The position numbers and the translations under genes are program-made. DNA of 64,000 nucleotides from Halorubrum sp. Hd13 (GTDB taxonomy: Archaea > Halobacteriota > Halobacteria > Halobacteriales > Haloferacaceae). The stretch is from positions 1-64,000 of the forward strand of contig NZ_NHOY01000105.1 of assembly GCF_002252755.1 (NCBI RefSeq). Direction: 5' to 3'. Positions 52,474 to 54,153 of the stretch are shown here, piece after piece. The notes below the pieces were generated by a model that was not told the origin of the DNA, did no database searches, and saw only the letters and a list, made by a program, of their open reading frames with translations. The first letter of the stretch is position 1. Every line of letters starts with the position of its first letter.

Positions 52474-52839
52474 CTACTGTCCGACGACGTCCGGTTCGAG
52501 CGCGCCGACCGCCTCGAGGATCGTCTCGACGTCCCCCTCGTCGACGCCGTTCTCCCGGAGCGCCTCGCCGAGGTAGGTCGCGACGCGACCGAACGCCTCC
52601 GCCGTGACTCCCATCCCCTCGTGTGCCTCCCGCATGTCGGCCCCCTCGTACGAGACCGGGCCGCCGGCGACGGCGCTGACGAACTGCACCTGATGGGCGT
52701 ACAGCGCCTCCCTATCGACGCCCTCGAAGTACGGTTCGAGGAGCGGATCGTCGAAGACGCGGTCGTAGAAGTCGGACACGACGGCCTCGACGGCTTCGCG
52801 ACCGCCGATGTCGGCATAGATCGATTGGCTCTCGGTCAT
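52474..52839 (-). CDS. Truncated haemoglobin, group I
   Basis: 121 residues. A 2-on-2 globin: DIGGREAVEAVVSDFYDRVF (B helix, Tyr near B10), YFEGVDREALYAHQVQFVSA and GGPVSYEGADMREAHEGMGV with the proximal F8 His in AHEGM. Group I globins commonly turn over NO to nitrate or bind O2. A near inverted repeat AGAACATGTTCG is 40 nt before the ATG and TCTTATGCC near 52866 is the TATA box between, so the regulator would bind next to the core promoter. Its neighbours (orphan GluTR domain, DUF2249, cupin) share this site. Confidence 0.85.
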   Translation of the reverse strand: MTESQSIYADIGGREAVEAVVSDFYDRVFDDPLLEPYFEGVDREALYAHQVQFVSAVAGGPVSYEGADMREAHEGMGVTAEAFGRVATYLGEALRENGVDEGDVETILEAVGALEPDVVGQ

Positions 52840-52879: not shown

Positions 52880-52891
52880 AGAACATGTTCG
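52880..52891. promoter_or_regulatory. Inverted-repeat operator of the globin promoter
   Basis: AGAACATGTTCG, one base off the CGAAC-N2-GTTCG pattern, 40 nt ahead of the globin ATG and just upstream of its TATA box. Confidence 0.6.
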
Positions 52892-52934
52892 GTGATATCG
52901 TCCGCGATCCGCCGGGCGGGCGACGCGTGCGTGT

Positions 52935-52946
52935 CGAACACGTTCG
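52935..52946. promoter_or_regulatory. Inverted-repeat operator of the 52984 gene
   Basis: CGAACACGTTCG, a CGAA-N4-TTCG inverted repeat, ends 37 nt before the ATG at 52984. No clear TATA box between them. Confidence 0.6.
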
Positions 52947-52983
52947 GGTGAATCCTGATCCGCGTGGCGGCCGGCGATCCGAT

Positions 52984-53334
52984 ATGCGACACGAACGGCT
53001 CGACGCGCGACGGACATCGGCCGTTCGAGCGCCCGACGACGGTTCGGCCGACGAGGAGTCGGCCGACGGCGACTTCGAAGATCCGGACCACGTCCGGCGG
53101 CAGATACTGGGCCGAGCGGAGCGGATCGAGCGCCGCGAGGTCGCGGAGGCGATATCGTCGCTCGAGGCGCGCGGCGGCCTCACCGACGAGCAGCGCGAGA
53201 CGGTCCGTCTCCTCGGAGCCGCGATAGCCCGGGAGCTGACGGCGGCGCCCGAGTCGGCCCTAGAGGGAACCGCGCGGGACGAACCGGCGGCCGTTCGGGC
53301 CGTCGCGCGGTTGTTCGACGTCGAGAGCGAGTAG
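52984..53334 (+). CDS. Orphan glutamyl-tRNA reductase dimerisation domain-like protein
   Basis: 116 residues. HVRRQILGRAERIERREVAE and the rest (ISSLEARGGLTDEQRETVRL, then ARELTAAPESALEGTA, RAVARLFDVES) match the C-terminal dimerisation helices of archaeal HemA: ERALxxLEARGxLTxEQxxxV... ...LLxxPxxxLRDAA. No catalytic or NADPH-binding part is present. It may bind HemA to tune haem synthesis, but this is a guess. Start ATG at 52984; a longer frame upstream is antisense to the globin. Confidence 0.6.
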   Translation: MRHERLDARRTSAVRAPDDGSADEESADGDFEDPDHVRRQILGRAERIERREVAEAISSLEARGGLTDEQRETVRLLGAAIARELTAAPESALEGTARDEPAAVRAVARLFDVESE

Positions 53335-53348
53335 CCGCGACCCCGCCC

Positions 53349-53582
53349 CTACGCCTCGACCTTCGGGAACTCGGCGACGAACTCGTCCGCCGCCTCCTGC
53401 CGGACCTCGTAGCGCTCCTCGTCGAACGCGGGCACCTCGGCGGCCATCTCGTAGTACAGGGGCTTCGGTTCGTGGTCGTTGACGATGGTGAGCGTCTCGC
53501 CGGGTTCCATCCCGTCGAACTCCTCGTGGATCCGGTCGTGTCTGTTCACCGGCGGAATGTCGCGAACGTCTAGTCGTGGCAT
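53349..53582 (-). CDS. DUF2249 protein
   Basis: 77 residues beginning MPRLDVRDIPPVNRHDRIHE. The pattern GMEPGETLTIVNDHEPKPLYYEM is the DUF2249 core (LxVNDHDPxPL). These proteins occur near NO and denitrification genes in many microbes. A CGAA-N4-TTCG inverted repeat (53623) is 40 nt before the ATG. Its stop lies 15 nt after the stop of the orphan GluTR-domain gene (convergent). An upstream in-frame start would pass over that operator. Confidence 0.82.
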   Translation of the reverse strand: MPRLDVRDIPPVNRHDRIHEEFDGMEPGETLTIVNDHEPKPLYYEMAAEVPAFDEERYEVRQEAADEFVAEFPKVEA

Positions 53583-53622
53583 GCGTCCGAGCGTTCGCGA
53601 CGCCTCCGCATCCGTGTTGAGA

Positions 53623-53634
53623 CGAACACGTTCG
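53623..53634. promoter_or_regulatory. Inverted-repeat operator of the DUF2249 gene
   Basis: CGAACACGTTCG identical to the 52935 site, 40 nt upstream of the ATG at 53582. Confidence 0.6.
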
Positions 53635-53757: not shown

Positions 53758-54153
53758 GTGAGTGACGTGCCCGCGACGAGCCTCGACGCGGAGCGAACCT
53801 ACGACGAGGAGCGGTTCTCGACGAGCGGCGTGTTCCGAAGCGACCGCTCGAAGGTCGTCTGCGGCTACTTCGAACCGGGGCAGTTCATCCCCGTTCACGC
53901 CCCCGAGAGCGACATGACGATTACGGTCCAGTCCGGGACGGGAACGGTCCGAGAGGGCGACACCGAGCACCCTGTCGCCTCCGGCGACGTTGTCCTCGTC
54001 GAGGCGGGGACCGAGCGCGGCGTGAAGGCGGACGACGACGCGCGCCTCGAAGCGGTTCTCGTCACCGCGCCGCCGCCGACCGACGCGGAGCACGACCCGG
54101 TCCGAGAGGGGATCCGACGCGGCGTGTTCGACCCGCGAACGGAATCAGAGTAA
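53758..54153 (+). CDS. Cupin-domain protein near NO-type genes
   Basis: 131 residues from a GTG start at 53758 (SDVPATSLDAERTYDEERFS). The cupin barrel has VHAPESDMTITVQSGTGTVR and VASGDVVLVEAGTERGVKAD. Metal ligands are fewer than usual (H then E). It is divergent from DUF2249 with 175 nt between; near 53690-53712 lies GATCGAACAGGACGCGAACA, two half-sites of the shared operator but no clean palindrome. Cupins next to DUF2249 are common in denitrifying haloarchaea; a role in NO or anaerobic response is inferred. Confidence 0.75.
   Translation: MSDVPATSLDAERTYDEERFSTSGVFRSDRSKVVCGYFEPGQFIPVHAPESDMTITVQSGTGTVREGDTEHPVASGDVVLVEAGTERGVKADDDARLEAVLVTAPPPTDAEHDPVREGIRRGVFDPRTESE

Follow-up and report, generated by a model that had tools for sequence, protein, structure and literature searches.

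Three short palindromes ahead of three genes of Halorubrum sp. Hd13 are very probably operators of the haloarchaeal anaerobic/denitrification regulon, situated at leaderless promoters and used by an HTH_10 activator of the NarO/DmsR kind. The basis for this reading is the sequence of the palindromes, their spacing and conservation, the identities of the genes and the candidate regulator genes of the same genome, which comprises 3.81 Mb in 130 contigs. By the window we mean the whole stretch of 64,000 nucleotides that was analysed; positions given without the name of another contig refer to it.

Boxes and genes of the cluster

The predicted globin operator (52880..52891, minus strand) reads AGAACATGTTCG, or CGAACATGTTCT on the gene strand, and lies 40 nt before ATG 52839 of a truncated (bacterial-type) globin of 121 aa (52474..52839, minus strand; Pfam PF01152, E 1.5e-21). 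The second predicted operator (52935..52946, plus strand; CGAACACGTTCG) lies 37 nt before ATG 52984 of a 116-aa protein (52984..53334, plus strand; Pfam PF00745), a stand-alone or orphan glutamyl-tRNA reductase (GluTR) dimerisation domain with no catalytic domains. The third (53623..53634, minus strand) is again CGAACACGTTCG, or CGAACGTGTTCG on the gene strand, and lies 40 nt before ATG 53582 of a 77-aa DUF2249 protein (53349..53582, minus strand; Pfam PF10006, E 2.9e-23). A shared inverted repeat before three ATGs on both strands is what the original prediction had described, with exact sequences and coordinates, and the profile matches agree with the three gene identities that it gave. It was also right that two of the boxes match CGAA-N4-TTCG exactly; the globin box, being CGAACATGTTCT on its gene strand, is one base off this pattern.

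The globin and GluTR boxes (52880-52946) share a single divergent promoter, where they lie back to back with centres 55 nt apart; in several relatives (L076, L079, L082) the centres are about 40 nt apart. A cupin gene beside DUF2249 (53758-54153) has no box at 37-41 nt, and its nearest exact site is 123 nt upstream in the shared intergenic region. Boxes at 39 and 41 nt precede similar cupins in two other loci (L290, L298).

The CGAA-N4-TTCG repeat that the original prediction placed at NarO-controlled anaerobic promoters of Haloferax proved to be real. The available part of PMC5746218 places CGAA-X4-TTCG before the denitrification genes and ahbD of Haloferax volcanii, links it to NarO and, citing Hattori 2016, calls the palindrome essential for a nirK reporter. 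In Haloferax mediterranei, the available text of PMC10062603 describes CGAAYATDKTYG in the nar, nir, nor and nos promoters, where its mutation significantly lowered the activity of the nos and nor promoters, did not significantly lower that of nir and left nar unaffected. The available text of PMC11218638 connects the same operator with 25 promoter regions whose expression was altered, and the induced targets include a globin gene (log2FC 4.16) and DUF2249 genes. Since both the operator and its globin and DUF2249 targets have been published in Haloferax, the regulon is known in kind and the Hd13 cluster represents a Halorubrum edition of it; promoter dependence and induction are those shown for Haloferax. 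The small anaerobic regulon originally proposed is thereby supported, as it is by the conservation and spacing described below, and the haloarchaeal anaerobic regulon would be extended to Halorubrum.

In comparison with the NarO-linked palindrome of Haloferax volcanii, the half-sites and the palindrome are the same, and islands with nirK, norB and ahbD-like genes are found in both cases. Here, however, the boxes belong to globin, orphan GluTR-domain and DUF2249 genes on a contig apart from nirK, and more than one protein is a candidate reader. The Haloferax mediterranei operator has the same CGAACATGTTCG/CGAATATGTTCG sites, and globin and DUF2249 genes are common to both systems. Its boxes lie 66-79 nt before the nir/nor/nos ATGs in the part of the published record available, whereas those described here and in other islands are mostly at 37-41 nt, with inner bases that are freer than in CGAAYATDKTYG.

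We infer binding in Hd13, a leaderless start, the signal and the roles of the proteins as follows. An HTH_10 activator related to NarO/DmsR would bind, as a dimer, to CGAA-N4-TTCG just upstream of a weak BRE/TATA; with the box ending about 38 nt before the ATG and a weak TATA near -29, transcription would start at or near the ATG. Once oxygen runs out, the bound activator would recruit basal factors and switch on the truncated globin, whose ligand is probably NO or O2, together with the DUF2249 protein. The non-catalytic GluTR dimerisation-domain protein would be switched on as well and probably tunes haem supply. The cluster is, on these sequence grounds, a small satellite of the denitrification regulon.

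Other boxed genes and candidate regulators

Sites with the strong core CGAAYRYRTTCG at 37-40 nt before an ATG occur twice in the window and on contigs C2, C50 (two), C54 and C55. The C2 box is 38 nt before a MoaD-like gene. On C50, one box lies 38 nt before the gene of a heavy-metal P-type ATPase and the other 37 nt before that of haem O synthase, which is followed by COX2 and COX1. The boxes of C54 and C55, at 37-38 nt, precede a COX1-like gene and a DUF2249-cupin gene respectively; on C54, another DUF2249 gene is preceded by CGAACAGGTTCG at a distance of 38 nt. Genes of NirK, an HTH_10 regulator, the P-type ATPase, cytochrome oxidase and haem O synthase form one block on C50 (C50:1-14500, L096). 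With boxes at 37-38 nt in this block, oxidase assembly genes seem to share the anaerobic operator.

NirK is encoded on C50 and scores over the NCBIfam cut-off (TIGR02376). The original prediction had looked to the nar, nir and nor promoters for the box. One box lies on C2 between the MoaD-like gene and a norB remnant, the only match at nirK carries two mismatches and lies about 76 nt upstream, and a search 30-110 nt upstream of the nar operon found none with 0-1 mismatch. The nar operon was recognised from a type II DMSO-reductase-family alpha/beta pair on C82, which fits NarGH as the operon was read by inspection; its matches with 1-2 mismatches at 43-508 nt were judged to be chance, and it was rejected as a target. 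Membership of katG was likewise rejected, there being no match even at two mismatches 20-140 nt upstream.

Only the C-terminal third of norB is present in the remnant (C2:74646-75534, L103), which matches residues 522-799 of a homologue of 806 residues. Provided that the assembly is correct, the strain, with NirK intact, may produce NO while lacking a complete qNor; a role of the globin towards NO would agree with this.

The HTH_10 profile has 36 matches in this genome. One of the proteins, on C16, combines DmsR_N (E 4.6e-12) with HTH_10 (E 1.2e-15); four Cys are found among the 80 N-terminal residues, two of them as CLC. Its gene lies about 1.7 kb from a strong-core site and adjoins that of a pseudo-SAM protein (TIGR04347, related to NirJ/AhbC models). 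In C16:79195-82500 (L098), the DmsR-type regulator, the TIGR04347 protein, the strong-core site, an HVO_2928-type HTH_10 regulator and a heavy-metal P-type ATPase are found together, a group which could possibly link haem synthesis, metal and anaerobic control. The N-terminus of NarO is said to carry CXnCXCX7C. No C.C.(7)C frame was found near the 36 HTH_10 matches among frames of at least 120 residues with more acidic than basic residues, and a plasmid search for NarO itself gave weak homologues only, none of them named narO.

One alternative is that the operator is the same and its reader another. The available text of PMC11218638 reports bacterioopsin-activator-like genes of Haloferax mediterranei as induced and proposes them as regulators; an HTH_10 protein with a BAT/HVO_0513-like N-terminus, encoded on C50 or C54, could bind the boxes in Hd13 and may sense NO or nitrite, not oxygen. 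HTH_10 genes do adjoin nirK (on C50, about 250 nt upstream) and the DUF2249/COX1-like cluster (C54), and in nirK neighbourhoods some relatives of these two genes have boxes at 37-48 nt. We regard such a reader as possible but somewhat doubtful, as the genome also encodes the C16 protein with DmsR_N and HTH_10, and loss of NarO reportedly abolishes denitrifying growth of Haloferax volcanii. An activator of the NarO/DmsR kind is the reader that we prefer.

Conservation and spacing of the boxes

The DUF2249 gene has homologues in 36 of 52 congeneric genomes. CGAA-N4-TTCG stands at 39-41 nt in all 30 loci compared, window included (40 nt in 20, 41 nt in six and 39 nt in four), and the inner four bases drift (CGTG, CGTA, CACA, CATA, CAAG, CCCG, CCGG). 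In ten of the DUF2249 loci, at 65-69% identity, the gene seems to be orthologous to the DUF2249-cupin gene of C55 and not to that of the window. Globin homologues occur in 34 of the 52 genomes, from which 30 loci were taken. In each of the ten close orthologues (75-100% identity, window included), CGAACATGTTCT is present at 39-40 nt, and the globin box is conserved in its deviating form. All 20 distant loci (39-51% identity) have no box at 37-41 nt; two of them have a site at 64-65 nt.

Similar spacing was observed in other genera. NirK scores over the cut-off in 73 of 148 family genomes, and 20 nirK neighbourhoods of other genera were taken, in which we counted pairs of an exact site and an ATG 28-48 nt on, opening a frame of at least 60 aa with more acidic than basic residues. 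Of 54 such pairs, which are not independent of one another, 42 lie at 37-41 nt (binomial 1e-16), and the mode is 38 nt (23 pairs). Three of the neighbourhoods (L288, L297, L300) have no site. Gap-38 promoters, 21 after a stricter filter, are enriched for A at -33, T at -29 and A/T at -11/-10, and for little else. This base pattern fits a leaderless haloarchaeal promoter with a weak BRE/TATA and an abutting activator box, and such leaderless-looking promoters with a box fixed about 38 nt before the ATG seem to be new. A promoter rule that places the box end 37-41 nt before the ATG makes regulon members callable from sequence.

The three promoters might instead have arisen from one ancestor by local duplication, the boxes being kept by descent without present function. 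Such an origin would agree with the three genes and their boxes spanning less than 1.2 kb. However, the spacers differ wholly among the three promoters, the half-sites are invariant across loci in which spacers and inner bases drift, and the box recurs before unrelated genes elsewhere in this genome and in other genera, all of which makes duplication highly improbable.

As a bare pattern, CGAA-N4-TTCG is frequent, with 194 sites genome-wide. The window has four, a number that 15 of 100 shuffles reach, against 1.91 expected, which is not significant, and the bare pattern was rejected as a regulon finder because it is too frequent. The genome scan for it near starts, which the original prediction had suggested, was weak: 17 of the 66 pairs of a site and an ATG 28-48 nt away lie at 37-40 nt (p = 0.11, not significant), with an excess at exactly 38 nt (9 of 66, p = 0.004). 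GAACRYGTTC has 75 sites genome-wide, and three within 755 nt have a Poisson probability of 5e-7 at the genome rate, a post hoc figure as the region was chosen for them.

The strong core has only 20 sites in the genome. Seven of its nine pairings with an ATG 28-48 nt away are at 37-40 nt (binomial 2e-4), and one of the two off-spacing pairings comes from the box at 52935 when it is paired with an ATG that lies within the globin box. The other sites lie at 63 nt (one), 90/112 nt (one) and 7 nt (one) from a gene, inside genes (eight) or without a called gene (two), the surrounding genes coming from a small and crude codon-usage caller trained on three genes of the window.

Because the bare pattern is so frequent, it is no proof alone, and the fixed spacing, the core sequence and the conservation carry the case. 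In a GC-rich genome a palindrome as frequent as this may give chance matches, and the unenriched window, the genome-wide count and the weak all-site spacing might suggest as much. Such an explanation has next to no likelihood in view of the unbroken conservation at the DUF2249 and close globin loci, the spacing held in other genera and the operator mutagenesis described in the available text for Haloferax mediterranei.

An orphan GluTR dimerisation domain

The GluTR-domain protein is the most interesting part of the cluster, since it has no catalytic domains, appears to be controlled together with haem-protein genes and in several genera lies beside an AhbD-like gene. The orphan of the window scores 22.9 bits against PF00745, exactly at the cut-off of 22.9; seven of eight other orphans are over the cut-off and one is below. 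With the HemA of the same genome it shares 47% identity over 74 aa. Matches occur in 145 of 148 family genomes and are mostly HemA itself. A tree splits HemA domains from orphans with an ultrafast bootstrap of 96 on 92 columns only, three HemA rows with a wrong segment having been left out and identical rows collapsed.

An AlphaFold model of the orphan (mean pLDDT 73.5) forms three helices, beginning at residue 34. VIA-align ranks two C-terminal chains of GluTR highest, 4yvq_A (Z 9.6, rmsd 2.5, 82 aligned) and 5che_B (Z 8.9, rmsd 1.9, 78 aligned), followed by a row at Z 7.2; these are helical bundles at Z <13, where coincidence is possible. Foldseek alone gave no significant match for the model (E > 1), and a PDB sequence search with the orphan gave no real match. 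The orphan resembles the GluTR C-terminal dimerisation domain, the target of the plant regulator FLU, in its PF00745 match and possibly in its predicted three-helix fold. It differs in standing alone, without catalytic and NADPH domains, and in belonging to a clade apart from the HemA domains.

The closest orphan loci in the named collection are those of Halorubrum yunnanense, H. saccharovorum, H. kocurii and H. salipaludis. A box lies 37 nt directly before the orphan in eight of 18 loci examined, two of them with a GTG start. In three others the orphan is the second gene of a DUF2249 operon with a box at 37 nt, and in three, all in nirK neighbourhoods, it stands behind a peroxiredoxin-like gene with a box at 39 nt. 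The remaining four fit no assigned arrangement; in two of these (L087, L088) it follows a radical-SAM gene, which is a fragment in L087 and in L088 is over the TIGR04053 cut-off and scores 341 bits with the model of haem b synthase (AhbD), short of the 500 bits that this model requires.

In other genera, six of the 20 neighbourhoods of nirK match the orphan profile. Two of them (L286, L291) have a gene, AhbD-like by eye, whose end the orphan frame overlaps. The overlap in L293 is with a DUF2249 gene that has its box at 38 nt, and the orphan of L292 has a box of its own at 40 nt. Among 30 genus genomes, eight have both orphan and NirK, three the orphan alone, none NirK alone and 19 neither (Fisher 2.8e-5, a value that ignores shared ancestry); one of the NirK entries in this table consists of two pieces that score below the cut-off. 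Among the matches listed for genomes outside the genus, most of those with NirK show no orphan. The orphan GluTR domain seems to be a recurrent, and apparently new, member of denitrification-operator islands; this recurrence, in some cases with an AhbD-like radical-SAM gene immediately before the orphan, suggests a part in controlling the anaerobic supply of haem.

According to the available part of PMC4726326, plant FLU binds the C-terminal domain of GluTR and lowers GluTR activity. A domain-only protein could pair with HemA and in this way either hold or release it; FLU docks in plants on the matching GluTR site, by a fold different from that of the pairing proposed here. We tentatively suggest, as a possibility rather than a likelihood, that the orphan is a new regulator of haem flux, present only under anaerobic conditions, which pairs with the C-terminal domain of the housekeeping HemA and couples ALA synthesis, as the first committed step, to the last, anaerobic one, for which an AhbD-like radical-SAM enzyme would be responsible. 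This little-noticed non-catalytic GluTR fragment would offer a testable link between oxygen/NO sensing and haem synthesis in archaea. No mention of an orphan GluTR domain as part of a NarO-type regulon emerged from the titles and abstracts of the open-access literature searched. In one locus (L075, 5711-5962), the orphan frame stops early, at 83 aa, and is perhaps a decaying copy.
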